DNA of 26,226 nucleotides from a virus: positions 1 through 26,226 of the IMG/VR virus record IMGVR_UViG_3300020442_004443. One strand, given 5' to 3'. Position numbers and translations under genes: made by a program. The notes under the pieces are model-generated. The model searched no databases and was not told where the DNA came from. It saw only the letters and a program-made list of their open reading frames with translations. Below, piece after piece: positions 610 through 26,148 of the stretch. Position 1 is the stretch's first letter. Every line of letters begins with the position of its first letter.

Positions 610-619
610 AAGATAAGCT

Positions 620-627
620 CATAAATA
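620..627 (+). promoter_or_regulatory. T4-type late promoter motif CATAAATA upstream of gene 25
   Basis: CATAAATA differs in only the first base from the T4 late promoter consensus TATAAATA, which is recognised by a phage sigma (gp55 type). It sits in the only non-coding gap on the left side (610-659), 32 bases before the gene 25 start. It would drive the 25-6-giant gene unit. No -35 element is expected for this promoter class. Confidence 0.6.
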
Positions 628-659
628 ATTGAACAATCTTCATTTACATTTGACCAAAA

Positions 660-1061
660 ATGGCAGTAAAGAGGGTATCCAGGTCATTTAAAGATATCAG
701 TTTATCCTTTGATGCCCATCCAGTAACAAAAGACATCACCATTCTCAAAAATGAGAGTGCAATTATACGTTCAATTCGAAATTTAGTCGAAACTACACCC
801 AATGAAAGGTTTTTTTCACCTGAATTGGGATCGAGCGTGCGCTCCAGTTTGTTTGAATTTGTTGATATAGGTACAGCATCTGTAATTCGTGATCAAATTA
901 AGAATGTAATTCAAAATTTTGAACCTAGAGTTGAAAATGTTGAGATAGATGTCTTTCCAAGACCAGACATAAATGAATTTGAAGCTACTGTATCCTTCAA
1001 TATCGTTGGACAAGAAGCTCCAACACAAGAGTTTTCATTCATCTTAGAGGCAACGGGATAA
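660..1061 (+). CDS. 25: Baseplate wedge protein gp25
   Basis: A 133-residue protein, almost the same length as T4 gp25 (132). It shows the family pattern: an N-terminal segment ending in DITILKNESAIIRSIRNLV, then RFFSPELGSSVRSSLFE in the middle, and NFEPRVENVEIDVFP with the conserved EPR at residues 88-90. In T4, gp25 joins gp6 and gp53 at the inner baseplate to bind wedges together and helps trigger sheath assembly. The Pfam name includes lysozyme, but the structural role is the established one. In T4 gene 25 is not next to gene 6; adjacency to gene 6 is the cyanophage arrangement. The ATG at 660 follows the late promoter by 32 bases; no good Shine-Dalgarno sequence is visible. The stop is 3 bases before gene 6, which suggests translational coupling. 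Confidence 0.93.
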   Translation: MAVKRVSRSFKDISLSFDAHPVTKDITILKNESAIIRSIRNLVETTPNERFFSPELGSSVRSSLFEFVDIGTASVIRDQIKNVIQNFEPRVENVEIDVFPRPDINEFEATVSFNIVGQEAPTQEFSFILEATG

Positions 1062-1064
1062 AAA

Positions 1065-2975
1065 ATGCCTTTTACAAAATATACTAACTTAGATTTCGAT
1101 CAAATAAAAGCATCGATTAAAGATTATCTTCGATCAAACTCAACTTTCACTGATTTTGATTTTGAAGGATCAAACTTTTCGGTCTTAATTGACACTTTAG
1201 CATATAACACATATATTAGTGCTTTCAACTCCAACTTAGTTGTTAACGAATCTTTCTTAGAGTCTGCTACTTTAAGAGAAAATGTGGTTTCATTGGCAAG
1301 AAACATTGGATACGTACCACGCTCTAGAACCGCCCCTACTGCGTCTGTGGCATTCACTGCTGAAACGGATGGTGATACCAGAACAATGACCTTAGAGGCG
1401 GGTCTGGTGTGTACTGGAACAGTGTCAGATACTTCTTATGTTTTCTCAGTACCAGAAAATGTTAGTGCATCTGTAATAAATGGTGTGGCTACCTTTACGG
1501 ACTTGGAAATTAGAGAGGGAACCTTTCTTAAAAAGCAGTTTACATATGATGGTTCAATAAATCAAAAGTTTATACTGAATAACTCATTTATTGATACTTC
1601 AACAATTAAACTTTTTGTAAAATCTACAAATGATACTGGGATTGGAAGACCTTTTAATTTAGTTGACAATATTTTTGATGTTGATAATACCTCAGAAATA
1701 TTCTTAATACAAGAAATTCAAGATGAAAAGTATGAGATTCTTTTTGGTGATGGTATTTTTGGCAAAAAATTGGTAGATGGGGATGTTATTACAGTAACTT
1801 ATATTGTTACTAACGGTGTAGATGGAAATGGTGTTTCTAACTTTGCTTTTGCTGGAGCATTTTTAGATGAAAATAACAATCCACTCATTGCTACAACTAG
1901 TGCTATAACGACTGTAAATGCCGCTCAAAACGGGTCTGCGATAGAGAGTGTAGATTCTATTAAGAACTACGCTCCACGCCTCTATTCCTCGCAATATAGA
2001 GCGGTTACTGCAAGTGATTATGAGTCTATAATTAAATCTAAAATTTTCCCACAAACTGAGTCTGCTTCAGTTATTGGTGGAGAAGAATTAAATCCACCAG
2101 AATTTGGCAAAGTTTATATTAGCATCAAACCAAAGAACGGTACATTTATTTCTGATTTCAATAAGCAGGAAATTAAAAATAAACTTAAACTTTATTCCGT
2201 AACTGGTATTGATCCAGAAATTATTGATCTAAAAATACTTTATGTTGAAATTGATTCATCAGTATACTTCAATAATTCAAAGGTTTCAAATACAAGTGAT
2301 TTAAAAACCAGAGTATTAAGTTCTCTTACAACATATTCAAATTCTACAGATTTAAATTCTTTTGGTGGAAGATTTAAGTATAGTAAGATTCAGCAAGTAA
2401 TTGATAATACTGATGAAGGTATTACTTCAAACATTACTAAAGTTAGAATTAGAAGAGATTTGAAAGCATTAATTAATGCTCAAGCTCAATATGAAATATG
2501 TTATGGAAATAGATTCCATGTGAATCCTGATGGTAAAAATATTAAATCTACAGGATTTAAAGTATTGGGTGAAACTGATTTTGTTTATTTGACGGATATT
2601 CCAAATGCCGACTACAAGACAGGATCTCTTGCAATTGTTAAGGATATGGGAATAGATGATTCTGGTGAAAGAAAAACTCCAATTGTAGTTCAGGATGCTG
2701 GAACAGTTGACTATGAAAAAGGTGAGGTTATTTTAAATACAATTATTGTTACAGAAACTGAATTGCCAAGGGATGTTATTGAAATTCAAGCGTTCCCCGA
2801 GTCAAATGATGTTGTTGGATTGAAAGATTTGTATCTCACATTTAGTATTGATAAAAGTGAGATAAATATCGTTAAAGATGTTATTGCATCTGGCGATGAT
2901 ATGTCTGGAGTCATATTTACGTCTGAAAATTATTATAGATCTAGCTATTCAAACGGAGAAATAAAGAGGTTGTAA
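1065..2975 (+). CDS. 6: Baseplate wedge protein gp6 (baseplate J-like family)
   Basis: A 636-residue protein, close to T4 gp6 (660). It carries the baseplate J-like signature: FGDGIFGKKLVDGDVITVTY with FGDG at residues 227-230, followed by TNGVDGNG, and RAVTASDYES from residue 312. The N-terminus (MPFTKYTNLDFDQIKASIKD) has the usual tail-wedge helix. In T4, gp6 dimerises and links neighbouring wedges into the ring that dilates during contraction, contacting gp25, gp53 and gp7. The start ATG at 1065 is 3 bases after the gene 25 stop; an AGAGG at 1046-1050 is too far away to be convincing. The gene ends 1 base before the giant gene, consistent with one coupled transcription and translation unit 25-6-giant. 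No frameshift or missing part is seen. Confidence 0.93.
   Translation: MPFTKYTNLDFDQIKASIKDYLRSNSTFTDFDFEGSNFSVLIDTLAYNTYISAFNSNLVVNESFLESATLRENVVSLARNIGYVPRSRTAPTASVAFTAETDGDTRTMTLEAGLVCTGTVSDTSYVFSVPENVSASVINGVATFTDLEIREGTFLKKQFTYDGSINQKFILNNSFIDTSTIKLFVKSTNDTGIGRPFNLVDNIFDVDNTSEIFLIQEIQDEKYEILFGDGIFGKKLVDGDVITVTYIVTNGVDGNGVSNFAFAGAFLDENNNPLIATTSAITTVNAAQNGSAIESVDSIKNYAPRLYSSQYRAVTASDYESIIKSKIFPQTESASVIGGEELNPPEFGKVYISIKPKNGTFISDFNKQEIKNKLKLYSVTGIDPEIIDLKILYVEIDSSVYFNNSKVSNTSDLKTRVLSSLTTYSNSTDLNSFGGRFKYSKIQQVIDNTDEGITSNITKVRIRRDLKALINAQAQYEICYGNRFHVNPDGKNIKSTGFKVLGETDFVYLTDIPNADYKTGSLAIVKDMGIDDSGERKTPIVVQDAGTVDYEKGEVILNTIIVTETELPRDVIEIQAFPESNDVVGLKDLYLTFSIDKSEINIVKDVIASGDDMSGVIFTSENYYRSSYSNGEIKRL
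2965..2969 (+). promoter_or_regulatory. Ribosome binding site of the giant gene
   Basis: AGAGG inside the end of gene 6, with 7 bases between it and the ATG at 2977. It is one of only two well-placed Shine-Dalgarno sequences in the window and fixes the giant gene's start. Most other genes here have weak or no such site. Confidence 0.7.
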
Positions 2976-2976
2976 T

Positions 2977-5900
2977 ATGATAGAAACTGGTTTCTCTCCC
3001 AGGGTACAAATCCAAGATATTATTGATAGTCAATTACCTGAATTTATTGTAAGTGATAATCCAAAATTTTCTGAGTTTTTAAAACAATATTATATTTCAC
3101 AAGAATATCAGGGAGGTCCAGTAGACCTATCTGATAACTTAGATCAATATTTGAATATTGACTCATTACTTCCTGAGGTAATAGTTGATAGAGCCACTTT
3201 ATCTTCAAATATTGATAGTTCTACTACAACAATTCAGGTATCAAGTACTAAAGGATATCCAGAATCTTACGGATTATTTAAAATTGATGATGAAATCATC
3301 ACATATACTAGTAAAACTTCAACCGAATTCCAAGGTTGTGTTCGTGGATTTTCTGGTGTAACAGGATATGATTATGGATATAATAAAGGTGAGTTAATAT
3401 TCAGTGAATCATCCTCAGCATCTCACATAGCTTCTACAAGCGTATCAAATCTTAGTTCGTTATTTTTACATCAATTCTACAAAAAGTTAAAATATGCCTT
3501 ATCTCCAGGGTTAGAGGGTTTTGAATTTGACTCAAACATTGATGTTCGCAACTTTATAAAGGAAGCAAAGACATTCTATCAATCAAAAGGTACTGAAGAA
3601 TCATTTAGAATTCTATTCGGTGTTTTATTTGGAGAAAGTCCAAAGGTAGTTGATCTTGAAAAATACTTAATTAAGCCATCTTCTGCTAATAATTTAAGAA
3701 GATTGGTAATATTAACTGAAGTATTAAGTGGAAACCCACTCAATCTTGAAGGTCAAACAATTTATAAGAACATTGACTCTAATACTTATGCTACTGTATC
3801 TGAAGTTGACATAATTCAAAGGGGTGAAAAAGTCTACTATAGAATGCTTCTTTTCTATGGGTATGATGATTCATTCCCACCTGTTTTCGGTGATTTTGTA
3901 ATTACTGGTAATACTAAAAATACAACATCAGTTTCTATTGGTGCATCTAATATAATTGTTGACACAACTATTGGATTCCCCAAAACAGGAACATTAACTG
4001 TGGGGAATAATAATATTTCTTATAGTGATAAAAGTATTAATGAATTTTTAGGTTGCTCTGGCATTACAGAAGAAGTTGGTGTAGCTTCGACAATCACATC
4101 AAATGAAACTTATTATGGTTGTGAAAATGGAGATTTGAGTAAAAAAGTTGTATTCAGAATTACTGGAATTATCTCTGGATACAAATCAAAAGTTAAAAAT
4201 GCACCGGTCTCTGTAGGTGAAGAAGTCACTGTTAAGAGTATTGGTGAAAAAATTAAAAATGAGCAAATCAATCCCACTAGAAAGCAAGTGTTTGCTAATA
4301 GTTGGGTTTACAATAGCTCTTCCAGAATTCAAATTGATACATTTGGTTCTGGAACTATCTCACAGATTACTCTTAAAAAATCTGTTGATAAGTGCCAATT
4401 AAAAGTTGGTGATCGTATAGACATTCTTTTTAGAGATTCTCAAACAGCAGTTGTAGAAAATCTTGAAGTTAATTCAATATTTGGAAACCAAGTAGGAACA
4501 TCTAATGCATTTTCACTGTCAGAATCTGCAAGATATGATATTAGGAAGAGAATTAATTTTGCTGACTTTGAAAATGTAGATACTGAATATGATAATATAT
4601 TTGCTGATATTCAAAATGTTTATAATGAAAATGATGAGTATATGTATGTTGCATCAAATTCAACTCCATCATATACAGTAACTAAGAAATTATTTTCATA
4701 TAATGTTTCCAGTCTGCATGAATTTAATGAATTTACTGGAAAATATGGAATTATTCAATTTGGCGCTACAGATAAAGTATCATTTTTAACTGGTACTGAG
4801 GTTGTATATACTCCATCTGGTGACCCAATTGAAGGATTAGTTCCTGGAACATATTTTGTAGAGACTTTGAGTAATAATACAATTAGATTATATGCATCAA
4901 GTGGAGCTATTAGATCTGGAGATTATTTAAGATTTGGTAGTTTGCCATCTGGTACACATAACTTTATTCCATTAAAACAGCAGGAGAAGGTAGTCTCTCC
5001 CCAGAAAGTATTTAAAAAATTCCCATTAAATCCAAACATTGGAGATGGAGAATCTACTTTAACTGCTCCAGGTGCAGTTGGAATGTTGATTAATGGTGTT
5101 GAGATATATGGATACAAGTCAAATGATAAAATTTATTATGGTCCATTAACTTCAGTAGATATACTAAACGGAGGAAGTGGATATGATGTTATTAACCCAC
5201 CAATAATTGAACCTTCATTTGGAACGGCAAAAATACAACCAATTATAACTGGAAGTGTAGTTGATGCTTTTGTAGATCCTCTTGATTTTGATGTTGATAA
5301 AGTTATTTCTATTGGATTTAGTGGTGGAAATGGAACTGGAGCATCTTTTGAACCAATTATTGAAAATAGAAGAAGAGAAATTTTATTTAATGCTAAGCAG
5401 TTAACTGAGGGTGGTGGAGTAGATGTTGATACTGATACTCTAACTTTTAGTAGTCCCCATAAATTATCTAATGGAGAAGCTATTCTTTATGATCCAGGTG
5501 TATATGCACCTCTTGGTATTGGAACATATCTTGGATCAAATTCGGATAGTGGAGATACTTTAATTAAAGACTCTGAGTATTATGTTCGTGTAATAAGTGA
5601 TGTTAGTATTTTACTATATGAAAAAATCACTGATTATAATGCTGGAATTAATACTGTTGGATTTACAACAATTGGTACAGCAGGAATTCAAAAATTCTTA
5701 ACTAAACCAAAGAGACAACTTGTTGGATTACAAGTTATAAATGGTGGAAGTAAATATGAAAATAGATTATTACGTGTGCAACCATCTGGAATTTCCACCA
5801 ATACTGATCGAATTACATCAGTTAATCATGGATTCTCTGATGGTGAACTAATTAACTATACTTATGAGACTAGTGGAATATCCGGTGTATCTACTGATAG

Positions 5901-8900
5901 TCAATACTATGTTCTTAAAGTTAATGATGATGTATTCAGTATTGCTGATGCGGGTATTGGTGCAACAATAAGTTCTAATTATGAAAGAAGAAAACCAGTA
6001 AAATTTGAAGATACTGGATCTGGTTATCAGATGTTTAAGTATCCAGATTTTAATTTAAATGTTAAATATACTGCTGCTGGTGTTGGAAGCACTGTATTTA
6101 CATCAGCAATAACTGCCACTCCTGTCATTCGTGGCGAAATTACTGGCACTTATGTTTATGATGGTGGATCTAATATTGGATCTGAAATCTTAAACTATGA
6201 AAATAATCCAAATATTATAGTTAAAAATGGAAAGAATGCTATTCTTTCACCCATAATCACTAATGGACAAATTACTGATGTATTTGTTCAGTCTAGTGGA
6301 TCTGAATATTTTTCGATACCAAATATAACAGCATCTGGAGATGGTAATGGTGCAAAGTTTAGACCTGTTATTGCAAATGGAAAACTTACTGATGTAGTTG
6401 TTGTAAGTCCTGGAATTGGATACTCCACTTCAAATACAGTAATATCTGTTGAGAGTGCAGGAAAAAATGCAGTTCTAAGGTCAAATATTAGATCTCTATC
6501 TGCTAATAACAATGTTATATTTAATGATGCAGATGATACTCTCGCAGCAGCAAATGAATTATTAATTTCAACTCCAAATAATAATTTACAATATGCTGTT
6601 TGTGCATATTCAGATACCATATTGAATCAATTTAATGATGATGGTACAGAGCACTCACCGATTATTGGTTGGGCTTATGATGGAAACCCAATTTATGGAT
6701 CTTTTGGATATACAGATCCTAGTGATATTAACTCAGATATTAAGAGATTGGTTTCTGGATATAGTGAAAGTATTTCTAATATTGAAAACAGACCAACATC
6801 CTTTGGATCAGGATTCTTTACTGAAGATTATGTATTTGATAATAGTGGAGATTTGGATGAATATAATGGTAGATTCTGTCTAACTCCAGAATTTCCAAAA
6901 GGAACTTACGCTTATTTTGCACCATCGGTTCTTGATGGTGATGGTAATGTTAAGGGTGTCTTCCCATATTTTGTAGGTAATAGATATAGATCCCCATTAT
7001 TGCAGGAAAATATTGAGTTAGATCAAGATTTTGATTTCAATCAATCAGATTTGATTAGAAATACATTCCCATACTCTGTAACTGAAGAATTTGCTGATAA
7101 TGATTTCATTGTAGAATCTAATGAGGAATTTACACAATCAACTAGAATTAATTCTATCAGCACTGGTAGTATTGAAGAATTCGATATTATTGATCCAGGA
7201 TCAAATTATAAGGTTGGTGATATTTTAAACTTTGATGAAGAAAAGAGTGGTGGAAGTGGTTTGTTTGCTTCTGTCCAAAAAATTAAAGGAAAACCAGTTA
7301 ATTCTTTGGATGTATCTACATTATCGTATGAGAATGCTATTTTTACTAAAAAGGATAATCAGACTATTGAAGTAAAAATATCACCTTCTCATGATTTGCA
7401 GAATTTAGATAATGTAATCATTTCTGGATTTTCTACAGTATCTACAGAATTATCTGGATTTTATCAAATAGGTGTTAGTTCAGTTACCTCAACATTAGTT
7501 GCTGAAATTCCATCAGCATCTGGTACAACTGTTGATATTTCACTATCAAGAATTCCAGATTCCATATCAATGGGAAGCAAGATTGGTATTGGTACTGAGA
7601 GACTTACCATACGTAATATTTTTGGTGATCTTAATGTTATCAGAGTTTCTAGGGAATATCCTGCGATTGCACACACCGCTACATCAACTGTAAGTTTTAT
7701 TCCTGATAAGTTTACTTTTAGTAAAACAAGTGATTTCTTCGAATCTTCATATAATGATTTGGTTTATTTTAACCCCACTAATGCATTAGGTGTAGGAACA
7801 ACACCTGGTGCCGGTATTTCCACAACTTATAATATTGGTGTTCAAACTAATCATACAGTATCGATTCCAACTCAGTCAATATATCTTCCAAATCATCCAT
7901 TTAGAACAAATCAAAAAGTAACATTTAAAAAAGAAGGACTTTCAGCTTTAGGTGTTGCAAATACTTCAGATAGTGCTATTTTCAATTTACCAAGCAGTGG
8001 AGAACAACAAGATGTATATATTATTAGGAAATCCCATGACCATATTGGTATTGTAACGCAAATAGGATTAACAACTACAACTGATGGTTTATTTTTCCGT
8101 AATTATGGAACAGATAGTCCATTATATAATTTTGAGTCTAATTATTTCCAATCTTTAGCAAACGTAAAGAAAGTAACTACAACTGTTTCAGTATCAACCG
8201 CACATGAAATGGTTAATGGTGATGTCATTGAGTTGGAAGTAAAACCAAACTTATCCGTAGGAATTGGAACATCTACTGCAGTAAGAATTAAGTATGATCA
8301 ATTCAATGAAAAAATCTTAGTTAATTCAACTGAATTTTTATCAACAGGTATCAATACCATTACAAATCAAATAAACATAGAAGATCATGGATTTAGTACT
8401 GGTGAGAAAGTAATTTATACTTCAGCAACTCCAGCTGTTGGATTGGAAACTGGATCTTTCTTTGTTTATAAAGTTGATGATGATAATTTACAACTTTGCG
8501 AAACGCTTCCAGACTCTTTATCAAATCCACCAATAGTTGTTGGAATTGCGACAGCTCCAGCAGCAACTCATGAACTTAGTCATATCAATCCACCATTAAA
8601 AGTTATTAGTAATAATAATATTGTATTTGATGTAAGTGACTCTTCTTTGATTGGATATAATTTCAAGATTTTCTATGATAATACATTTAAAGATGAGTTT
8701 GTCTCCACTGCAAGTACAAATGCTTTCTCCGTAACTGGTATTTCTACAGTAGGTTATGGTACAGCATCGGTAACAGTAATACACGATTCACTTATACCAT
8801 CTCCACTATACTATGGTTTAGAAAAATCTGGATTTATTAGCACTGCAGATGTTGATGTTCAAAATTATTCTCAAATAACTTATGAAGATAGTCTCTTCAA

Positions 8901-11900
8901 TGGAGAATATGCTATTTCTGGTGTCGGTGAAACCACTTTCAATATTTCACATTCTAGAATTCCAGAAACAACTTCATACTTAGCATCACAATGTGATACT
9001 ATAGAATATAAAACAAGATCCACCACATCTTCTGGTGGAATATCAGATATTTTAATTACATCTCCAGGATCTGGATATGAAAGTCTACCCAAATTATTAG
9101 GATCTAATTCAGTTTCTGGTGCAGGTGCTGCTATAGTTGCCAATTCAAAAGGTATTGGTGATGTCAATCAACTGGAAGTTTTGAATGAAGGTTTTGATTA
9201 TTCATCAGATTTGACTTTAAGACCACTTGCAACTATTCCAAAACAGTTAATTACTAAAAATTCTAATACTGTAAATGGCGTAGAAGTTTTAGATGGTGGA
9301 AAGAATTTTATTGGTGCTCCAGACTTGATTCTCATCAATAAAAATACTGGAGAGTTGGTTGATTCTGGATTCATTTCAGCAGAACTTTCTGGAAGCACAA
9401 TTATTTCTGCAAATGTTGAAAGTGAACCAAAGGGTGTTCTTGAAGGTGTTTTCTTAGATGTTAGATCTATTAACAATACTAATGGTGTTGCTGTTAACGT
9501 TTACACTGGATCAGTTAATAGTGGAATTGTCAGTGCAACATTGGCAACTCCTTTAAATGGATTCTCTGTAGAACCATTTAAAGTTGGAGATTTAGTATAT
9601 GTTGAGGGATTAACAAGATATGATTCTCAGGGTGATGGATTTAATTCTGAAGATCATGGATATGCTTTCTTCCCAGTAGTTGCATATTCAAATGCAGGTA
9701 CAAATCAACCTAGAGTCTTGCAGTATGATATATCCAGATATTCTACAGGTGCTGGAATTGGTCTTACTGGAAATGTTTATGGTACGATTATAAATTATGA
9801 AAATTATCCTAAATTTGAAGTTAATACTATCTTCTCAGAATTTCTCATCAATGAGAGTGTTGAAGTTTTACAGACTGGAGGATTTACTCTCACAGATTCT
9901 AGAATTGTAAGTTTTGAAGGAAGTGTTCTTAAGATATCTGGGGATTATGTTTTTAATTCCGATGATATCATTAGGGGGGTTCAGTCTGGTTCCATTGCTA
10001 CAGTCGATGAGGTTAATCTCTCTGAGGGTATATTTGATATACAATTTTCCATTTTGAAAGACTTTGGATGGCAAAATGATATTGGAAAATTAAATAACGA
10101 CACTCAAATCATAGAAGATAATGATTATTATCAAAATCTATCATATACAATAAAAACCAGAAAAACCTGGGATGATGTTATTAGTCCTGTTAATAATCTT
10201 GTCCACCCATCTGGACTAAAGAATTTTGTTGATACTGAAATTCTACAACCAGTGGGAGTTGTAACTACAACTTCTACTGAATCTTCAATCTCCATTCATG
10301 AGATTATGAATGAAAAGAGGGTAGATGCTATTAATAATTTTGATTTAGTTAGAGATTCAAATACTTTTGATCAATCTTCCAAATTTATTGAATTTGCCAA
10401 TGAAAAACTAACTGACTATGTTGAAGTTAGAACAAATAGAGTTCTTGAAATTGACGATATCAGTGATCAGTTCTCAAACAATAATCTTGATATTGAAAGA
10501 GAAACTAATTTAGAAGAAATTCCATCAAATAGACAGTTTAGTAAATTCTTAGTCCAAGCTACTAGTGCAGACTACTCCCAAGTAATGTTCAGCGAAGTAA
10601 TGGTCCTGAATAATAATCAAGGTCGTGCATATACATTATCAAAAGCAAGTCTGACAAATTTTGATGAAGATTTTGCTGAAATCACTTCCTTTACAAATAC
10701 TCAAGGAGAAGTATTCTTACAATTCAGCCCAACTGAAGTATTCAATACATCATATAATGTTAAGCATTTAAACACAGGATTTACCAATTTTGTTACTGGC
10801 GTATCATCTATAACAGTAGGATTTGTTGATATCATTGGTGTTACTACTACAGTTTCAGCAGGAACAACTACGACAGTATTAACAGCAGAAACTGGTAAAA
10901 AGGAAGCAATTCATTCTTATATCCATGTCTTAGGTGACACTAGTAGAGAAATGAATTATGTTGAATTGCTTGTAGATCATGATGGTGAAAATACAAACAT
11001 TGCAGAGTTTTACTTTGACACTGATGAGGGTGATATTAGTAATAGTCCCATCGGATCTTTTGATGCTTCAATAGAGGATGGGATTCTAAGCTTAAATTAT
11101 TCAAATACAACTGGAGAACCAGTTGTTTTAAGAACCAGAAACGTTGGTTTTGGAACAACTGTTACTGGAATTGGAACTTATAGATTCCAAAAAATAGGAC
11201 AACCAGAGGGTGATGAAAGATCCATAACATTTGATTCTCAATTTGTTAACACTTCTATTGCTTCCACAACTATAAAATCATTTGATATTAGTGAATTTAC
11301 ATCAATGAAGTCAACTGTAAGGGTTAGTGTTGGAGAAACAAGCGCTTTGCATCAAGTGATGGTTATCACTGATACTTTCAATGTCAATCAGGAAGCATAC
11401 ACACTTCAATATCCTTTCTTATCTATTGGTAGCACCAGTGGTATTGGCACCTTTGGTATGGAAATGTCTGGATTTAATGGTAACTTCAAATTCTACCCAG
11501 ATCCAGAATATGTTGGAGCAGAATCTATTCAAATATCTTCTTTTAATGAAAACTTCTATCATGATTATGATACTGCAAATCTTCCGGAAGATTTGCAGTA
11601 TGGAAATATTTTAGAGTCTATGACTCTTTCCAAGTTCTTATCTGCAAATGATGACGATTTATTTAAGACAACATTTGATTTAACATATGATGGAATTCCA
11701 ATTTTTGTAAAAACTTTTAATCCCACGGATTCTTCCGTAATTGATATTTCATTAGATACTTCTACTCTGAGTATTGATGATCATTTCTTCAGTACTGGAG
11801 AGGAATTAGTTTATACTCCAGGTTCAACCTTCACTTCAATTGAAGCATCTCCAATCCAAATAGTTGAAACTGAAAATTATCTTGGTGTAACCACAACATT

Positions 11901-14900
11901 GTTGCCAAGTACAGTATATGCAATTAAGATTAATAATGGAAAGCTTAAGTTAGCAACTACTAGAGAAAACGCTGACGCAGGCATAGCAGTTACTTTCAGT
12001 TCAATTGGTGATGGTAATGCTCATAATCTGGAAATGAAAGAGAAGGTAAGTAAGACTCTCATTACAGTTGATAATTTAATTCAGTCTCCCATTGCATATT
12101 CACTTATTAGATACCAAAACGTTGGTGGTGAGATTGGTGTTGGTGATAGTATGGTACATGTTAGTGGAATTTCATCAATTATTCTTGGAGATCTGTTAAA
12201 AGTTGACGATGAGTACCTTAAGGTTTTGAATGTTGGGTTGGGAACAACCGCTAGCGGACCTATCTCTTTTGGTGGAACTTTCCCACTTGTAAATGTTGAA
12301 AGAGGAGTTGCAGGAACAATAAGCACTTCTCACACACAATATAGTGATCTAGATCTCTATAGAGGTTCGTATACTATTACAGAAAACCAAATTCACTTTA
12401 CAGATGCTCCTGCAGGTATATTAGAAGATCAAATATTTGAGGACGTTGATAACTTACCAGAAGGTAGATCACAATTCTTCGGTAGAACTTTCTTAAGACT
12501 TAACTATGATAGTAATCAAATCTTTGATAATATCTCAGAGAAATTTACAGGTTTAGACCAAAGATATACATTGACATCTGCTGGTGTTAATACTGTTGGT
12601 CTCGGAACCAGTGGTGGTGCTGGAATTATTCTTATTAATGGAATATATCAAGCTCCAACTACTTCTAACAATCAAAATAATAACTTTAATATCGAAGAAG
12701 ATCTTTCAGTTGGAATTACTAGTGTAGTATTCTCCGGAATTACTTCTGCAAATGGTCAAATTATAATTTCACCTGATGATGTCAATCAAAATCAATTACC
12801 TAGAGGTGGTGTTATTGTATCATTGGGATCTACACCTGGATTGGGATATGCTCCATTATTTGGTGCAAGCGTTCTACCGCTAGTTGGTGCTGGTGGATCT
12901 ATTGTTGATGTTGTTGGTATACCAACTTATGGAACAGCACTTGGAATTAGTACAGTATCCTATGATAATGAAAGTGGATATATGGACATCACCACAGATG
13001 TCGATCATAATCTAAATTCAACTGATCTTTGGATAGAAGGTTTAAAATTCTCTTGTGATGAATATTATGATGGTCCAGTTGTTAATATTTCCAACTTTGT
13101 ATATGATAATTTGACTGGAATTGCAACAGTTACTACTTCTGGTGATAGTTATGCAACTCTTGGCAAATCAGTTCGTCTTTCTGACATCTTGATGGATTGT
13201 AATTCTTATGAAGTTGGTATTAGTACACTCAATATATCCGACGTAGATTATGATAATCTAACTGGTATTGTAACTGTCACAACTTCTAGTGCTCATGGAT
13301 TGGAGGTATCAAATCCAGTTAAACTTGATAATATTGAGTTTACCTGCAATTCTTATACAGGATTTGTTACATTCACCGCAAATAATCTAACTTATACTGA
13401 ATCTACTGGAATTGTCACAATTACAACTGACATTGAACATGGAATTTCTGTTGGGGAATGGGTACAGTTGTCAGACTTTGAACTTTCTTGTTCTGTTGAG
13501 CACGCTGGTGTTACTACAACAATTTTTCCACACCCAGCACAAGATGGTTATCCACAGTGTATTCCTAATGAACTAACTCTTGGAAATACCTACAACGTAG
13601 TTAGAGCACAAGCTGGTACGTCAGGAACTTCATTAGTTCTCAATGTTGGTGTATCTACAATTGCTCATACTTACGCCTCTGGTGGTGAAGTTATGACAGG
13701 TATTACATCAACCACCTTCCCATATGAGTTTGGAAAAACTCAAAATAATCTTTACGGATCATTTAATATTTGGGAAATAACAGAAATTGTCAGTACCACA
13801 GAGTTTGAGATTAATGTAGGCGTATCAAGCATATATCACACTTATGCTTCCGGAGGAACAGTTACTGTTGGTATTACTTCATCTGTATTCCCATATCCAG
13901 GTGGTAATGCAAATAATTCTTATGATGCATATGACGTATTTGAAGTTACTTCAATAGCATCGCCATCAGAGTTTACTGTTAATGTGGGAATTTCTACAAT
14001 TATCCACGAATATGTAAGTGGTGGTACAGTTAAGTCTGGTGTAACTACAACTATTTTCCCAGATGGAACGTTAGGAAATATATTCAGTATCTCAGAAATT
14101 ACTGGAGACGATACTCTTAGAGTTAACATTGGCATATCTTCCTTCTCTCACACTTATATTGGACTTGGAAGTGTACGTCCATATTATAGAGATTTAAATC
14201 TTGGATCTGGTTATAGAGAACCTGTTTCCATTGCAATTACTGATTCAAATCACAGTGGATCTGATGCAAACATTGTGGTAGAAGTAGATCGCAATGATCA
14301 TAAATTTGTATCTGCTACTACAAACAATGTTACTAGAAGCATTGGTGGAACTTTGAGTATTAGTTCGGCACATTATGAGACAACAACTGGTGTTCTCCAA
14401 TTATATTTTACTGGAGCACATGGTTTAACAACATCAGATACGATTGTCATTGCCGACAATTCAATGACATTTACTTGCTCGGAAGACTTCCACAGAACTC
14501 AACTTTCATATCCACGTTCTACAGATCCAGCTTCTGGAGCAAATCTTGAAGTTCTTTCAGTAATATCATCGACTGGAATTACTGTTAATGTTGGCGCTTC
14601 TCTATATGGAACTGGGGGAAGACTTAAATTTAGGATTGTGGATGGTGGAACAGGATATACAGTTCCAAGAATAGATATTGAACATCCAACATATTCAAAC
14701 TTAACTCTTGTTGGACAATCTAGAGTTGGTCTTGGTACTACAACTGACACTGGATTTGGAATGCTTGTAAATCTAGATGTTGGAAATTCTGATAGGAATA
14801 CTAATGGTGATAGATTCTTTGATGCTGCAAATCTAATAGAAGCAAATAAAGAGTTTATTGCAGATATTGCATATGGAAGAATGGTTGCAGCATTCCCAGG

Positions 14901-16941
14901 ATTTGTAACTCCAACAGGAAATCCTCAGGATTGTAAAGATGATATTGAAGATGTACTTGAATCCATGCTGTATAACCTCAAGTATGGTGGAAATGATTTA
15001 ACCGTTGACGCTGCTAATCTGTACGTTACAGGTGCTCATGTGAGTGGTGAAGAGGCAGAATCAGTCTATGCCTTTATAGAAGCAAAAGACATGGCAATTC
15101 AAGCCATGAGAAATGAAGTGATTACCGTAGGTGGTTATACAACAAAAACTCAGGTATTTGACTACACAATTACAATAGACTCCGAGACACCTTATTGTGC
15201 TAATGTTGCATCTGCAATTCATACTCTGGTTGGAATTGTTACTACAGCAGTGCAAGATGGTATTGTTCCCAAGAGAACAGTTGCTCCTGGAGCACAATAT
15301 GTTGTTGAAGATTTCGATGTCTCTAGAAAGGGATATGGATTTAAGAAGGGTGATGTAATGAGAGCAGTTGGTCTTGTAACAGCTCTTGGATTATTAGAAC
15401 CCATCAAACATTTTGAGATAAGTGTTGAGGATGTTTTCAGCGATGCATTCTCTGCTTGGCAATTTGGTCAAATTGATTATGTGGATCCAATTGATGAGTT
15501 CCAAGATGGATCTAATACAAGATTTGATTTGAGATATAATGGTGAACTTCTAAGTTTTGAAAAAAATAGATCTAATGCTGATTCCCAAGTAATCGATTTT
15601 GCACCTCTTTTAATTATATTCCTTAATGGTATTTTACAGCAACCAAAAGTCGCTTATGAATTTGAAGGTGGTACAACTGTTAAGTTCTCAAATCCACCAA
15701 AAACTAATGATAAAGTATCGATTTTCTTCTATAGAGGAAGTGAGGCAGATAGTTCATTAGTTCTTGTTAATCAAGTTGTTAAAATCGGTGATGATGTACA
15801 AATCTTTAGTGATAATAATAAATTGGGAATTACAACAACACAAGATACTAGAACCATAACTAGGTTTAGTGGATTTGATATTGCTCAAACTAATTTATAT
15901 TCTGGTGAAGGTATTGATGAAGATAATCAAAAACCAGTAACGTGGATAAAGCAGAAAAAAGATATGATTCTTGAAGGTGAAATTATATCTAAATCTAGAG
16001 ATTCGATCGAAACACAAGTTTATCCAACCGCAAGAATTATTGATAATGTCACTTCGGGTGATAGTGAAATATTTGTGGATAATGCACAATTCTTCAACTA
16101 TGAAGATCCTAGCACTGTTAATTTTGATGGAATTATCTTACCATCTACAGTTGATCCAGTCGCTGCTGGTGTGAGTGTTGTTGTTTCTTCTGCAGGAACT
16201 GTTCAATCTCTTCTCATACTTGAATCTGGTAGCGGATATGTTGGATCAGCTCTCACTGTAAGTATTTCTGCACCACCAAGAATTGGTGTTGGAGTTGGAA
16301 CTACTGCTAAGGCAACTGTAACTATTATTAATGGATCTATAACATCTTCAACTATCACCGAACCAGGATTTGGATATTCTCAAAATATATTACCTCAGGC
16401 GATTATTCCACAACCAAGTCCAATTCGCGAAGAAATTGCAGGAATAACTAATGTTGAAGGATTTGGTGGATCAATTGTTGGAATTGCAACCACAACTGGT
16501 ATTGGAACTGATCTAGCAATTTCCTTTACATTAGATGGAACTTTAAGTCCATTTGCTGGATTATCAACAAACTATAGAATATATGTTTATGATTCGCATG
16601 TTGGTAATGGTTTAACATCTATCCTTAATAATGATACCGAAGTTATTGGTACTGGAACAACATGTGTTGATAACATATACAATGTTAGTGCATTTGATGC
16701 CACTGTAGGAATCATTACATGCAATATTGATTCAAATTCTAATACGGTTGGAATAGCAACAACAGGATCTCTATCTGCAAGATTCTCTTGGGGAAGATTA
16801 TCTGGATTTAGTAGAGCAAGTGCTCCAATATCAATTGGAGTATCTGAATTTGTAGTTGATGCTGGACTGTCAACTTTCCCAGTAATTCAAAGAAGAGGTT
16901 TCGGTTTAAGAGATCTTGGAGCTCTTTCTAAAGATACTTAA
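2977..16941 (+). CDS. Giant modular baseplate/virion structural protein in the gene 7 position
   Basis: One uninterrupted frame of 4,654 residues, over half the window and about four and a half times T4 gp7 (1,032). Gene order 6-X-8 points to gp7, the peripheral wedge initiator that binds gp8 and gp10 in T4; direct sequence similarity to T4 gp7 is not something I can see. The N-terminal ~250 residues look like a dedicated assembly domain (SDNPKFSEFLKQYY; FYQSKGTEESFRILFG). The rest is a chain of beta-rich modules: RGxxG, HGFSxGExVxY, GGSGY, a YHYH-like domain (about 1195-1335), Cys-containing tandem repeats (about 3320-3850), an alpha-helical domain (about 3937-4095) and a phage-fibre NGILQQP module (about 4170-4255). 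It ends in IQRRGFGLRDLGALSKDT. A segment near residue 2390 (KTWDDVISPVNNLVHPSGLK) is not repetitive and may be a core contact. The gene has no own promoter motif and starts 1 base after gene 6. Confidence 0.85.
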   Translation: MIETGFSPRVQIQDIIDSQLPEFIVSDNPKFSEFLKQYYISQEYQGGPVDLSDNLDQYLNIDSLLPEVIVDRATLSSNIDSSTTTIQVSSTKGYPESYGLFKIDDEIITYTSKTSTEFQGCVRGFSGVTGYDYGYNKGELIFSESSSASHIASTSVSNLSSLFLHQFYKKLKYALSPGLEGFEFDSNIDVRNFIKEAKTFYQSKGTEESFRILFGVLFGESPKVVDLEKYLIKPSSANNLRRLVILTEVLSGNPLNLEGQTIYKNIDSNTYATVSEVDIIQRGEKVYYRMLLFYGYDDSFPPVFGDFVITGNTKNTTSVSIGASNIIVDTTIGFPKTGTLTVGNNNISYSDKSINEFLGCSGITEEVGVASTITSNETYYGCENGDLSKKVVFRITGIISGYKSKVKNAPVSVGEEVTVKSIGEKIKNEQINPTRKQVFANSWVYNSSSRIQIDTFGSGTISQITLKKSVDKCQLKVGDRIDILFRDSQTAVVENLEVNSIFGNQVGTSNAFSLSESARYDIRKRINFADFENVDTEYDNIFADIQNVYNENDEYMYVASNSTPSYTVTKKLFSYNVSSLHEFNEFTGKYGIIQFGATDKVSFLTGTEVVYTPSGDPIEGLVPGTYFVETLSNNTIRLYASSGAIRSGDYLRFGSLPSGTHNFIPLKQQEKVVSPQKVFKKFPLNPNIGDGESTLTAPGAVGMLINGVEIYGYKSNDKIYYGPLTSVDILNGGSGYDVINPPIIEPSFGTAKIQPIITGSVVDAFVDPLDFDVDKVISIGFSGGNGTGASFEPIIENRRREILFNAKQLTEGGGVDVDTDTLTFSSPHKLSNGEAILYDPGVYAPLGIGTYLGSNSDSGDTLIKDSEYYVRVISDVSILLYEKITDYNAGINTVGFTTIGTAGIQKFLTKPKRQLVGLQVINGGSKYENRLLRVQPSGISTNTDRITSVNHGFSDGELINYTYETSGISGVSTDSQYYVLKVNDDVFSIADAGIGATISSNYERRKPVKFEDTGSGYQMFKYPDFNLNVKYTAAGVGSTVFTSAITATPVIRGEITGTYVYDGGSNIGSEILNYENNPNIIVKNGKNAILSPIITNGQITDVFVQSSGSEYFSIPNITASGDGNGAKFRPVIANGKLTDVVVVSPGIGYSTSNTVISVESAGKNAVLRSNIRSLSANNNVIFNDADDTLAAANELLISTPNNNLQYAVCAYSDTILNQFNDDGTEHSPIIGWAYDGNPIYGSFGYTDPSDINSDIKRLVSGYSESISNIENRPTSFGSGFFTEDYVFDNSGDLDEYNGRFCLTPEFPKGTYAYFAPSVLDGDGNVKGVFPYFVGNRYRSPLLQENIELDQDFDFNQSDLIRNTFPYSVTEEFADNDFIVESNEEFTQSTRINSISTGSIEEFDIIDPGSNYKVGDILNFDEEKSGGSGLFASVQKIKGKPVNSLDVSTLSYENAIFTKKDNQTIEVKISPSHDLQNLDNVIISGFSTVSTELSGFYQIGVSSVTSTLVAEIPSASGTTVDISLSRIPDSISMGSKIGIGTERLTIRNIFGDLNVIRVSREYPAIAHTATSTVSFIPDKFTFSKTSDFFESSYNDLVYFNPTNALGVGTTPGAGISTTYNIGVQTNHTVSIPTQSIYLPNHPFRTNQKVTFKKEGLSALGVANTSDSAIFNLPSSGEQQDVYIIRKSHDHIGIVTQIGLTTTTDGLFFRNYGTDSPLYNFESNYFQSLANVKKVTTTVSVSTAHEMVNGDVIELEVKPNLSVGIGTSTAVRIKYDQFNEKILVNSTEFLSTGINTITNQINIEDHGFSTGEKVIYTSATPAVGLETGSFFVYKVDDDNLQLCETLPDSLSNPPIVVGIATAPAATHELSHINPPLKVISNNNIVFDVSDSSLIGYNFKIFYDNTFKDEFVSTASTNAFSVTGISTVGYGTASVTVIHDSLIPSPLYYGLEKSGFISTADVDVQNYSQITYEDSLFNGEYAISGVGETTFNISHSRIPETTSYLASQCDTIEYKTRSTTSSGGISDILITSPGSGYESLPKLLGSNSVSGAGAAIVANSKGIGDVNQLEVLNEGFDYSSDLTLRPLATIPKQLITKNSNTVNGVEVLDGGKNFIGAPDLILINKNTGELVDSGFISAELSGSTIISANVESEPKGVLEGVFLDVRSINNTNGVAVNVYTGSVNSGIVSATLATPLNGFSVEPFKVGDLVYVEGLTRYDSQGDGFNSEDHGYAFFPVVAYSNAGTNQPRVLQYDISRYSTGAGIGLTGNVYGTIINYENYPKFEVNTIFSEFLINESVEVLQTGGFTLTDSRIVSFEGSVLKISGDYVFNSDDIIRGVQSGSIATVDEVNLSEGIFDIQFSILKDFGWQNDIGKLNNDTQIIEDNDYYQNLSYTIKTRKTWDDVISPVNNLVHPSGLKNFVDTEILQPVGVVTTTSTESSISIHEIMNEKRVDAINNFDLVRDSNTFDQSSKFIEFANEKLTDYVEVRTNRVLEIDDISDQFSNNNLDIERETNLEEIPSNRQFSKFLVQATSADYSQVMFSEVMVLNNNQGRAYTLSKASLTNFDEDFAEITSFTNTQGEVFLQFSPTEVFNTSYNVKHLNTGFTNFVTGVSSITVGFVDIIGVTTTVSAGTTTTVLTAETGKKEAIHSYIHVLGDTSREMNYVELLVDHDGENTNIAEFYFDTDEGDISNSPIGSFDASIEDGILSLNYSNTTGEPVVLRTRNVGFGTTVTGIGTYRFQKIGQPEGDERSITFDSQFVNTSIASTTIKSFDISEFTSMKSTVRVSVGETSALHQVMVITDTFNVNQEAYTLQYPFLSIGSTSGIGTFGMEMSGFNGNFKFYPDPEYVGAESIQISSFNENFYHDYDTANLPEDLQYGNILESMTLSKFLSANDDDLFKTTFDLTYDGIPIFVKTFNPTDSSVIDISLDTSTLSIDDHFFSTGEELVYTPGSTFTSIEASPIQIVETENYLGVTTTLLPSTVYAIKINNGKLKLATTRENADAGIAVTFSSIGDGNAHNLEMKEKVSKTLITVDNLIQSPIAYSLIRYQNVGGEIGVGDSMVHVSGISSIILGDLLKVDDEYLKVLNVGLGTTASGPISFGGTFPLVNVERGVAGTISTSHTQYSDLDLYRGSYTITENQIHFTDAPAGILEDQIFEDVDNLPEGRSQFFGRTFLRLNYDSNQIFDNISEKFTGLDQRYTLTSAGVNTVGLGTSGGAGIILINGIYQAPTTSNNQNNNFNIEEDLSVGITSVVFSGITSANGQIIISPDDVNQNQLPRGGVIVSLGSTPGLGYAPLFGASVLPLVGAGGSIVDVVGIPTYGTALGISTVSYDNESGYMDITTDVDHNLNSTDLWIEGLKFSCDEYYDGPVVNISNFVYDNLTGIATVTTSGDSYATLGKSVRLSDILMDCNSYEVGISTLNISDVDYDNLTGIVTVTTSSAHGLEVSNPVKLDNIEFTCNSYTGFVTFTANNLTYTESTGIVTITTDIEHGISVGEWVQLSDFELSCSVEHAGVTTTIFPHPAQDGYPQCIPNELTLGNTYNVVRAQAGTSGTSLVLNVGVSTIAHTYASGGEVMTGITSTTFPYEFGKTQNNLYGSFNIWEITEIVSTTEFEINVGVSSIYHTYASGGTVTVGITSSVFPYPGGNANNSYDAYDVFEVTSIASPSEFTVNVGISTIIHEYVSGGTVKSGVTTTIFPDGTLGNIFSISEITGDDTLRVNIGISSFSHTYIGLGSVRPYYRDLNLGSGYREPVSIAITDSNHSGSDANIVVEVDRNDHKFVSATTNNVTRSIGGTLSISSAHYETTTGVLQLYFTGAHGLTTSDTIVIADNSMTFTCSEDFHRTQLSYPRSTDPASGANLEVLSVISSTGITVNVGASLYGTGGRLKFRIVDGGTGYTVPRIDIEHPTYSNLTLVGQSRVGLGTTTDTGFGMLVNLDVGNSDRNTNGDRFFDAANLIEANKEFIADIAYGRMVAAFPGFVTPTGNPQDCKDDIEDVLESMLYNLKYGGNDLTVDAANLYVTGAHVSGEEAESVYAFIEAKDMAIQAMRNEVITVGGYTTKTQVFDYTITIDSETPYCANVASAIHTLVGIVTTAVQDGIVPKRTVAPGAQYVVEDFDVSRKGYGFKKGDVMRAVGLVTALGLLEPIKHFEISVEDVFSDAFSAWQFGQIDYVDPIDEFQDGSNTRFDLRYNGELLSFEKNRSNADSQVIDFAPLLIIFLNGILQQPKVAYEFEGGTTVKFSNPPKTNDKVSIFFYRGSEADSSLVLVNQVVKIGDDVQIFSDNNKLGITTTQDTRTITRFSGFDIAQTNLYSGEGIDEDNQKPVTWIKQKKDMILEGEIISKSRDSIETQVYPTARIIDNVTSGDSEIFVDNAQFFNYEDPSTVNFDGIILPSTVDPVAAGVSVVVSSAGTVQSLLILESGSGYVGSALTVSISAPPRIGVGVGTTAKATVTIINGSITSSTITEPGFGYSQNILPQAIIPQPSPIREEIAGITNVEGFGGSIVGIATTTGIGTDLAISFTLDGTLSPFAGLSTNYRIYVYDSHVGNGLTSILNNDTEVIGTGTTCVDNIYNVSAFDATVGIITCNIDSNSNTVGIATTGSLSARFSWGRLSGFSRASAPISIGVSEFVVDAGLSTFPVIQRRGFGLRDLGALSKDT
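3187..3365 (+). repeat. RGxxG-type module, copy 1 (giant protein)
   Basis: Residues about 71-130 of the giant protein: SSTTTIQVSSTKGYPESYG, then IDDEIITYTS and FQGCVRGFSG. The pattern is a Thr-rich strand, a hydrophobic-Asp-Asp/Glu-Glu-Ile strand and a closing Gly-Cys-x-Arg-Gly turn. A degenerate copy follows at about 3915-4075 (GNNNISYSDKS, FLGCSGITEEV), a third lies at about 12090-12330, and one lies in the DUF4815 gene at about 24511-24730. Confidence 0.6.
4768..4977 (+). repeat. HGFSxGExVxY module, copy 1 (divergent)
   Basis: Residues about 598-667 of the giant protein: FLTGTEVVYTPSG, GLVPGTYFVETLSNNTIRLY and SGTHNFIPL. It follows the family order of opening loop, G(E/D/T)xVxY strand, (Y/F)(Y/F)V strand, a strand ending in L, and GxHxF/L close. 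The His-Gly of the opening loop is lost. Confidence 0.55.
5425..5700 (+). repeat. HGFSxGExVxY module, copy 2
   Basis: Residues about 817-908: SSPHKLSNGEAILYDPG, then SEYYVRVISDVSILLYEK and GTAGIQKFL. Same strand order as the other copies, with a longer insert before the YYV strand. Confidence 0.6.
5791..6039 (+). repeat. HGFSxGExVxY module, copy 3
   Basis: Residues about 939-1021: VNHGFSDGELINYTYE, then SQYYVLKVNDDVFSIADAG and GSGYQMFKYP. One of the two best-preserved copies. Confidence 0.65.
6562..6921 (+). other. YHYH-like domain in the giant protein
   Basis: Residues about 1195-1315. HSPIIGWAYDGNPIYGSFGY (1226-1245) and later LDEYNGRFCLTPEFPKGTYA match the conserved core of YHYH-domain proteins known from bacteria and phages. 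The eponymous Tyr-His-Tyr-His stretch expected just upstream is not visible; the corresponding stretch reads LQYAVCAYSDTILNQF. The domain's biochemical role is unknown to me. Confidence 0.7.
8353..8580 (+). repeat. HGFSxGExVxY module, copy 4
   Basis: Residues about 1793-1868: IEDHGFSTGEKVIYTS, then GSFFVYKVDDDNLQLCETL and AATHELSH. This is the copy closest to the pattern also known from bacterial adhesins and other phage proteins (HGL.TGd.V.Y...YYV...L...GtHtL). Confidence 0.7.
11746..12048 (+). repeat. HGFSxGExVxY module, copy 5
   Basis: Residues about 2924-3024: DDHFFSTGEELVYTPGS, then STVYAIKINNGKLKLATT, ENADAGIAVTF and GNAHNLEM. The Gly of the opening His-Gly is replaced by Phe. Confidence 0.65.
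12090..12330 (+). repeat. RGxxG-type module, copy 3 (giant protein)
   Basis: The translated stretch contains GDLLKVDDEYLKVLNVG followed by FPLVNVERGVAGT. It follows the same order as copy 1 (hydrophobic-Asp-Asp-Glu strand, insert, Arg-Gly-x-x-Gly turn), with a longer insert in the middle. Confidence 0.5.
12946..13510 (+). repeat. Tandem ~45-residue Cys-ended repeats (four units)
   Basis: Four successive units in the giant protein centre on VSYDNESGYMDITTD, FVYDNLTGIATVTTS, VDYDNLTGIVTVTTS and LTYTESTGIVTITTD. Each is followed about 20-25 residues later by a strand with a Cys: LKFSCDEYY, ILMDCNSYE, IEFTCNSYT and FELSCSVEH. Units 2 and 3 also look similar at the DNA level (13102 onward against 13248 onward), suggesting relatively recent duplication. 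A fifth, separated unit (YETTTGVLQLY, MTFTCSEDF) lies at about 14350-14530. Confidence 0.75.
13632..14180 (+). repeat. NVGVSTIxHTYASGG repeats (four units)
   Basis: Units read LNVGVSTIAHTYASGGEV, INVGVSSIYHTYASGGTV, VNVGISTIIHEYVSGGTV and VNIGISSFSHTYIGLGSV. The first three are followed by GITSTTFPY, GITSSVFPY and GVTTTIFPD. The same FP-type closing strand (GVTTTIFPHP) ends the preceding Cys repeat array, so the two repeat families interlock. A fifth partial (VNVGASLYGTGGRL) is near 14590. Confidence 0.75.
14785..15260 (+). other. Alpha-helical domain inside the giant beta protein
   Basis: Residues about 3937-4095 are rich in Ala, Glu, Asp, Asn and Met and read as helices: DRFFDAANLIEANKEFIADI, AYGRMVAAFPGF, CKDDIEDVLESMLYNLKYGG, DAANLYVTGAHVSGEEAESV and YAFIEAKDMAIQAMRNEV. 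The composition is unlike the Thr/Ser/Gly-rich beta modules on both sides. I recall similar helical segments in other large cyanophage structural proteins, sometimes in several copies. Confidence 0.7.
15484..15741 (+). other. Phage-fibre NGxLQxP module near the giant protein C-terminus
   Basis: Residues about 4170-4255: FQDGSNTRFDLRYNGE, then IFLNGILQQPKVAYEFEGGT and FSNPPKTNDKVSIFFYRG. This is the common tail-fibre module pattern (NGvlQ.P...Y...g..i.F...P..gd.v.i.y.G). A related NGIYQAP segment sits at residues 3220-3227 (about 12634-12657), followed by LPRGGVIVSLGST. Confidence 0.65.
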
Positions 16942-16950
16942 TTAACTCAT

Positions 16951-16958
16951 TATAAATA
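16951..16958 (+). promoter_or_regulatory. T4-type late promoter TATAAATA upstream of gene 8
   Basis: An exact TATAAATA in the 36-base gap after the giant gene stop (16942-16977). By the T4 spacing, transcription would start about 6 bases after the motif, leaving a leader of only about 14 bases before the gene 8 ATG. It would give gene 8 and the DUF4815 gene transcription independent of the 14-kb gene upstream. Confidence 0.75.
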
Positions 16959-25993: not shown

Positions 25994-26141
25994 ATCTATG
26001 TCCAAGTCGTTCGAGTATGAACGGCAAGCAAGATTAATTGATGAATGTAGAGACCTCGATGAATTGAAAAATATTTGCAAGTCTTATGCAAAATTGTATT
26101 TCAAACAACAAGAAGTTTTACAGGCGTTACCTGCTCTATAA
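25968..26141 (+). CDS. Small acidic/helical protein, 57 residues, overlapping the previous gene
   Basis: Translation from ATG 25968 gives MNPDEITLESMSKSFEYERQ, ARLIDECRDLDELKNICKSY, AKLYFKQQEVLQALPAL, with a TAA at 26139-26141. It is predicted to be almost entirely helical, with two Cys (residues 27 and 37). Support for a real gene: an ideally placed AGGAG, translational overlap of 26 bases with the upstream gene, and sensible composition throughout. The layout (a short ITLE segment, a SFExxRQ helix and a LYxxQ helix) loosely recalls NblA phycobilisome degradation adaptors, which some cyanophages carry. That similarity is weak and unverified. Alternatively it is a regulator or a small assembly protein. 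I recall comparable SFEYE...KLYxxQQE proteins in cyanophages, annotated as hypothetical. Confidence 0.75.
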   Translation: MNPDEITLESMSKSFEYERQARLIDECRDLDELKNICKSYAKLYFKQQEVLQALPAL

Positions 26142-26148
26142 ATAGAGC
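26133..26148 (+). terminator. Hairpin overlapping the gene end, weak terminator candidate
   Basis: GCTCTA (26133-26138) pairs perfectly with TAGAGC (26143-26148) around a TAAA loop, starting in the last codons of the 57-residue gene. It is followed by ACATTTTATAG, a poor U tract. A 6-pair stem with half A/T is weak, so it may not terminate. It also contains a late promoter motif. Confidence 0.35.
26137..26144 (+). promoter_or_regulatory. Late promoter motif TATAAATA inside the hairpin
   Basis: An exact T4-type late consensus spanning the stop codon of the 57-residue gene, 47 bases before the next start. Confidence 0.55.

Follow-up and report, generated by a model that had tools for sequence, protein, structure and literature searches.

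A giant gp7-family protein in the baseplate wedge cluster of a T4-like cyanophage appears to carry a gp7 core in two separated segments

The window analyzed here is the complete 26,226-base IMG/VR record IMGVR_UViG_3300020442_004443. As it contains only part of a tail module, it probably derives from a larger phage genome. The gp25, gp6, giant, gp8 and VrlC genes described below are all located on the plus strand. The gene under study occupies positions 2977–16941: its frame begins with an ATG at 2977, with the ribosome-binding-like sequence AAAGAGG (2963–2969) 7 nt 5' of it, and runs through 4,654 codons without any internal stop to the stop codon at 16941. The single intact frame of nearly 14 kb described in an earlier sequence-only reading was therefore exact. 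An open frame of 4,654 codons at about 33% GC cannot be due to chance, and by its matches to PHROG 2885 and to the S-SRM01 protein the ORF is judged to be protein-coding. A chimeric assembly was ruled out, as 47 environmental contigs contain the scaffold, cassette and C-terminus described below in one stop-free frame.

The giant gene is surrounded by those of its wedge partners. Upstream are gp25, the sheath initiator (660–1061; PF04965, E 2.9e-13), and gp6 (1065–2975; PF21379, E 4.7e-18; phrog_219), the latter ending one base before the ATG of the giant gene. Downstream follow gp8 (16978–18549; PF09215, E 7.3e-13; phrog_438) and, as a gene separate from gp7, a VrlC-type protein of 2,407 amino acids with DUF4815 (18553–25776; Pfam and PHROG matches). 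The order gp25-gp6-X-gp8-VrlC is found in the window as well as in the cyanophage, Sinorhizobium and Pelagibacter relatives compared, with additional genes between X and gp8 in S-SM1 and Mosig. Directly 5' of gp25, an ORF at 61–609 matches PHROG 3577, a family of unknown function. The T4-type late promoter motif TATAAATA occurs twice in the window, at 16951–16958 and 26137–26144 (both plus strand), and both sites are intergenic, one in the 36-base gap between gp7 and gp8 and the other 3' of the VrlC gene. Such sites are rarer than expected by chance (2 versus 4.5), so that their number proves nothing and their intergenic position alone is suggestive; the site in the gp7/gp8 gap suggests that gp8 may have a late promoter of its own.

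The position of the giant ORF is that of gene 7 of T4, the product of which, as previously stated, comprises 1,032 residues. This assignment is upheld by the gene order and by profile homology to T4 gp7. PHROG 2885 ('baseplate wedge subunit', model length 4,179) matched residues 2–3944 with E = 0, and the S-SRM01 protein is 49% identical across residues 1–3317. With the first 3,000 residues as query, tblastn matched 465 phage records, nearly all of them cyanophages, with S-SRM01 at the top (48.7%); the P-SSM2 and S-SM2 versions are annotated as gp7 'baseplate wedge initiator'. Among T4-like cyanophages, which abound in the ocean, the protein in this slot varies widely in length: 1,942 amino acids in MA01, 3,048 in S-PM2, 3,895 in S-SRM01, 4,120 in S-SCSM1, 4,156 in S-SM2, 4,225 in ACG-2014f, 4,749 in S-T4, 5,195 in P-SSM2, 6,180 in S-SM1 and 6,932 in S-SSM4. 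With 4,654 amino acids the window protein is thus of ordinary, mid-range size (1,942–6,932 aa) for the cyanophage group, and the family is known and widespread. In the deposited genome of S-SKS1 (NC_020851, 14001–27000) the giant gp7 is split over several frames and annotated as fragments, due to either sequencing errors or real decay.

Residues 1–225 (2977–3651) represent the N-terminal half of the wedge core according to AlphaFold, hhalign and Foldseek. In an AlphaFold model of residues 1–600 of moderate confidence (mean pLDDT 69, pTM 0.39), they form helices at about 12–64, a beta insert at 68–158, and further helices at 159–175, 190–202 and 207–218. The beta domain between the core helices (3178–3450), seen in the model and by self-comparison, is the first copy of a repeat module termed A; in S-SM1 and S-SSM4 about 500 more residues are inserted near residue 110. 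Residues 190–224 (3544–3648), hereafter anchor 1, contain the motif FYxSKGTxESxxILFxVLYGE and match residues 730–759 of T4-type gp7. When a profile built from 68 relatives of residues 1–600 was compared to the PDB, the sole credible chain was a 1,032-aa T4-type gp7 at these residues (E 0.0014), and PF23786 (Baseplate_wedge) was matched in 57 of the 68 relatives (best 5e-7). Comparison with 18 T4-type gp7 sequences by hhalign aligned window residues 195–309 with T4 residues of about 727–822 at 93–96% (E 2.9e-7 to 4e-9; hhalign E-values given here are single-comparison values). As a control, 60 column shuffles yielded no more than 1.9%, and the reversed profile gave nothing. In this alignment residues 225–310 (3649–3906) are placed on T4 gp7 760–822, part of T4 domain V. 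The first and third Foldseek matches of the N-terminal model were likewise T4-type gp7 chains, at E 3.6e-4 and 5.9e-3. As their TM-scores were very low, this result supports the gp7 match without proving it. Residues 1–70 alone gave no significant hhalign match to T4 gp7, and the N-terminal helical domain (T4 643–689) was matched only indirectly, via the Desulfovibrio-phage and phiN3 proteins. A single-sequence PDB search with the whole protein returned no credible match, and T4 gp7 domains V and VI were undetected in the window protein by Pfam scan.

A second segment related to the T4 core is found far downstream. Residues 2365–2425 (10069–10251), hereafter anchor 2, carry the motif DNDYYQNLSYTIKT...VHPSGLKNF and correspond to T4 gp7 848–898, which straddles the boundary between Pfam domains V and VI, and to residues 231–290 of a minimal gp7 from a Desulfovibrio phage. 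By hhalign, window 2365–2425 matched the Desulfovibrio-phage gp7 at 98.3% (E 1.5e-14), window 2325–2428 matched Mosig 533–670 at 96.7% (E 3e-10), and window 2365–2421 matched phiN3 930–986 at 93% (E 3.5e-7); for window 5–279 against the Desulfovibrio-phage protein the value was 84%. The minimal protein, of 586 amino acids, is encoded by an unannotated ORF in the gp25-gp6-X-gp8 cluster of Desulfovibrio phage 7757 (OR395405; L261:5926–7683). It matches the T4 gp7 family continuously over T4 644–897 (95.9%, E 5.8e-9) and, judged by these alignments, bridges T4 gp7 and cyanophage gp7. With this bridge included in the T4 profile, anchor 2 matched T4 848–898 at 93% (100 shuffles, no more than 1.4%); without it the match was modest (34%, E 4e-4), a level reached by none of 200 shuffles.

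Both anchors occur in order, with different spacers, in five PHROG families, namely 26741 (154 to 377), 17744 (133 to 671), 4406 (340 to 1794), 2885 (338 to 2373) and 701 (833 to 3416). They also lie together inside the single 284-position model of PF23786, at about 161–228 and 234–284. The second part of this model is matched, below the curated cut-off, far down the giant chains of MA01 (1850–1891), S-PM2, S-SM1, S-SSM4 and S-SCSM1; the window's own anchor 2 gave no PF23786 match. The distance from motif to motif is 126 residues in T4, 155 in the Desulfovibrio phage, 420 in Mosig, 1,636 in S-PM2, 1,662 in MA01, 2,184 in the window, 2,279 in P-SSM2 and 2,883 in S-SSM4. In all relatives checked anchor 2 is present in one copy per protein, in the order seen in the compact gp7 of T4 and of the Desulfovibrio phage. 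The T4 gp7 core (about residues 643–898) appears to be represented in the window protein by two separated segments, at about 5–310 and at 2365–2425. The MA01 protein stops 87 residues beyond anchor 2, and the C-terminal extension is therefore a separate addition from the insertion into the core; hence two separate gains are suggested by the comparison. In the open-access literature, to which the search was confined, no description of such a split core was found.

The insertion between the two core halves comprises about 2,050 residues (311–2364; 3907–10068) and consists of beta modules A, B and C together with a YHYH domain. Profile self-comparison of the whole protein defined seven repeat families, A to G, in addition to the YHYH domain, a helical module and the N-terminal core, which bears out an earlier estimate of at least six kinds of module. 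Copies of module A are found at 68–121 and 308–360. Module B is present in six copies, the first at residues 592–668 (4750–4980) and the others at 821–912, 946–1022, 1626–1700, 1795–1870 and 2920–3020. The 'GSGY' beta module C occurs in about eight copies, the first at residues 722–798 (5140–5370) and others near 1053–1118, 1095–1156, 2018–2082, 2097–2153, 3876–3937 and 4404–4474. Three tandem copies of module D (about 2510–2610, 2630–2732 and 2761–2860), two of module E (3167–3254 and 4158–4239), copies of module F within 3320–3527 and near 3795–3855, and three copies of module G (3546–3735) follow further downstream. Module C is also present in the neighboring gp8, and VrlC gave weaker matches to modules A and C. 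Residues 1872–1957 form a module common to the tail fibre of Mosig, a phage with a separate tail fibre gene and chaperone between gp7 and gp8 (L258:16084–18660); this shared module hints at a possible fibre-to-gp7 exchange at this locus. The Pfam matches E1_FCCH, ACCA_BT and Laminin_G_2 were set aside as sub-threshold.

Beyond the core, alignment with six relatives of other genera showed that residues 1–3320 and 4108–4654 are collinear with few gaps (S-SRM01 has one deletion near 4400–4485), and that residues 3321–4107 are largely missing or replaced. The C-terminal extension thus starts with a conserved collinear scaffold, residues 2426–3320 (10252–12936), which includes the three module D copies. 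It is followed by a length-variable cassette of 787 amino acids, residues 3321–4107 (12937–15297), with modules F and G and the helical module. In the 47 environmental relatives this interval is in frame and stop-free throughout and measures 99, about 103, 141, 190, 206, 303, about 402 or 1,190 amino acids; the nearest relative, with flanks of 80% and 73% identity, has 99 at this place compared to 787 in the window. The helical module itself, residues 3944–4107 (14806–15297), is not present in the nearest sequenced relatives. It recurs in 350 phage records, where some of the genes concerned are annotated as tail protein or short tail fibre. The beta repeats 5' of it have matches in genes annotated as tail fibre and, for S-PRM1, as endosialidase; all these names are the depositors' untested annotations. 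A search of the 236-kb relative G001 did not find the helical module, which is uninformative. The last 547 residues, 4108–4654 (15298–16938), form a conserved, mostly beta block with a mean column identity of 71% among 44 relatives. No significant match to this block was obtained with its profile in the PDB and Pfam or with its model (pLDDT 62) in Foldseek, and comparison with T4 gp7 gave none either.

Taken together, it is likely that the ORF encodes the wedge initiator gp7 of a T4-like cyanophage, with a core split in two, a looped arm and a C-terminal arm. Residues 1–225 would pair with two gp6 molecules under gp25 to form the wedge core bundle and trifurcation as in T4 and XM1, and residues 2365–2425 would come back to the same wedge site. 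Residues 311–2364 would accordingly be an arm running out of the wedge and back into it, and residues 2426–4654 a second arm. As gp10, gp11 and gp12 of T4 have been reported to be absent from cyanomyoviruses (PMC2984593), and none of T4 gp8, gp9, gp10, gp11 and gp12 was found in any tile of the giant protein or of VrlC, both arms are candidates for providing the periphery that T4 makes from the N-terminal domains of gp7 and from gp10, gp11 and gp12. The cassette at 3321–4107 would be an exchangeable, exposed part serving host contact or fibre docking. The earlier proposal of a fibre-like or host-contacting organ is supported in part by the modules that this cassette has in common with genes annotated as tail fibre, short tail fibre and endosialidase. 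The conserved C-terminus may dock onto another component of the particle, probably a constant partner. The gp7 homology, the order of the split segments and the conserved and variable stretches are seen directly in the sequences; the packing of anchor 2 against the wedge, the placement of the arms and the contact with a host are inferred.

The sequence-only reading had instead pictured an assembly domain at the N-terminus only, from which the protein would extend far from the wedge. In such a single continuous fibre-like arm about 4,300 residues would point outward from anchor 1, and anchor 2 would be an old module without wedge function. Beta-bead modules are indeed found throughout the giant protein, and its variable cassette is common to tail-fibre genes. 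However, anchor 2 is a single-copy element ordered as in compact gp7 proteins, the MA01 protein stops just beyond it, and the C-terminus shows conservation instead of variability. Furthermore, while most phage fibres are trimers, T4 gp7 is a monomer, present in six copies per tail, which together with two gp6 molecules builds the core bundle and trifurcation under gp25 (PMC3004832, PMC10457771). The second core segment and the conserved C-terminal block disfavor the single rod, which we regard as unlikely, and show that the N-terminus is not the only candidate assembly domain; a returning loop with a second arm fits better.

The proposal that the ORF encodes a virion protein is supported by published mass spectrometry of particles, which covers relatives only. 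The 'baseplate wedge initiator' S-SZBM1_208 (724 kDa, 6,619 aa), taken as a family member by name, length and place among wedge genes, was detected in virions with 71 peptides and 13.5% coverage (PMC9146016 Table 1). S-CREM2 ORF122 (5,814 bases, 1,937 aa), taken as a gp7-slot protein by its position between two wedge genes, was detected with 91 unique peptides and 27.2% coverage (PMC10665884 Table 3). Furthermore, T4-GC969 of S-SM1, named an experimentally identified structural protein (PMC3037559), is SSM1_102, the 6,180-aa gp7-slot protein. As coverage is not mapped along the chain in these data, they are compatible with cleavage, and both the great length of the protein and its conserved C-terminal block, which follows a variable cassette, would fit a polyprotein that is cleaved into separate virion proteins at maturation. 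Processing is not reported in the literature found, however, and S-SZBM1_208 is a single 724-kDa entry with 71 peptides, an assignment by gene-level peptide inference rather than intact mass. We consider a polyprotein very unlikely.

The YHYH domain, residues 1212–1315 (6610–6921), passes the Pfam cut-off clearly (PF14240, 94.9 bits versus 25), and a hydrolase function has been predicted for YHYH domains (PMC7824862). The giant protein might on this ground be an envelope-degrading arm, with the domain serving as a metal-dependent hydrolase when the phage enters. None of the 114 family segments examined contains the YHYH histidine motif, though, and only an HSPIIGW-type histidine is common, in 91 of them. 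The predicted hydrolase role is thus doubtful here, the domain of the giant family is possibly a non-catalytic version, and an enzymatic arm is highly improbable.

According to a published statement, gp7 is missing from cyano- and pelagimyophages and its place is taken by VrlC (PMC7029224); the giant ORF would then be an unrelated structural protein. In favor of this view, the divergence of gp7 is too great for ordinary BLAST. It is nevertheless hardly tenable: profiles of the ORF match T4 gp7 at both anchors, the gene order is correct for gp7, and no likeness to T4 gp7–gp12 was found in VrlC. This evidence from profiles and gene order contradicts the claim of a missing gp7.

Overall, the gene itself belongs to a known family of giants and is of ordinary size for it, and it is the split core that deserves specialist attention. 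In the baseplate of cyanophages, from which gp10, gp11 and gp12 are reported to be absent, our analysis places a giant, split gp7 and assigns likely core, arm and exchangeable surface parts on the basis of sequence. Tentatively, the core might be physically split; if so, one polypeptide would replace the T4 peripheral proteins gp10, gp11 and gp12, and the baseplate surface would be changed by module insertion. Natural intermediates from 586 to 6,932 amino acids allow testing of the model, the short MA01/S-CREM2 type being structurally the easiest.

When compared to known systems, the window protein is closest to the PHROG 2885 giants (P-SSM2 gp7, S-SM2 gp7, S-SRM01 and S-T4), with which it has the slot, the scaffold (1–3320 and 4108–4654) and both anchors in common at 30–49% identity; it differs by its own 787-residue cassette with a helical module that those relatives lack. 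The S-SM1/S-SSM4/S-SZBM1 type (PHROG 701 and 19630 models; T4-GC969), in which S-SZBM1 is placed by length and name only, has the same slot and anchors. S-SM1 and S-SSM4 differ from the window in the approximately 500 extra residues near 110, a longer insert between the anchors and several helical modules. The proteins of Desulfovibrio phage 7757 (586 aa), Sinorhizobium phage phiN3 (gp105, 1,006 aa) and Pelagibacter phage Mosig (874 aa) have the slot, the N-terminal core and both anchors as in the window, whereas their spacer is short to moderate, and they have no giant extension and no YHYH domain in the Pfam scan.

With T4 gp7 (PHROG 964, 1,032 aa), the window protein has the gene order, the helix/KGT segment and anchor 2 in common (T4 about 643–898). 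T4 gp7 has about 640 residues before this core and about 130 after it. In the window protein no residues precede the core, whereas about 2,050 interrupt it and about 2,230 follow. T4 residues 1–640 and domain VI have no counterpart in the window protein; these parts are features of the Tevenvirinae version and are lacking as well in the proteins that occupy this slot in phiN3 and the Desulfovibrio phage. The T4-like gp7 CDS of Proteus phage PM2 has only 697 amino acids, and PHROG 20454 (253 aa) corresponds to T4 gp7 3–261 alone; the N-terminal part of T4-type gp7 may be a detachable addition that is separately encoded in some phages. Gp17 of Vibrio phage XM1 (242 aa), a T4 gp7 orthologue of known structure, is likened to the window protein by literature and not by sequence. 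Its first 48 residues, a helix-turn-helix, are part of the core bundle, and its loop and C-terminus bind the receptor-binding tail spikes (PMC10457771). Both core segments persist in the window protein, and the sites that it has enlarged are comparable to the loop and C-terminus of XM1 gp17; whereas the tiny XM1 protein binds separate spike proteins, the window protein would instead carry long arms of its own.
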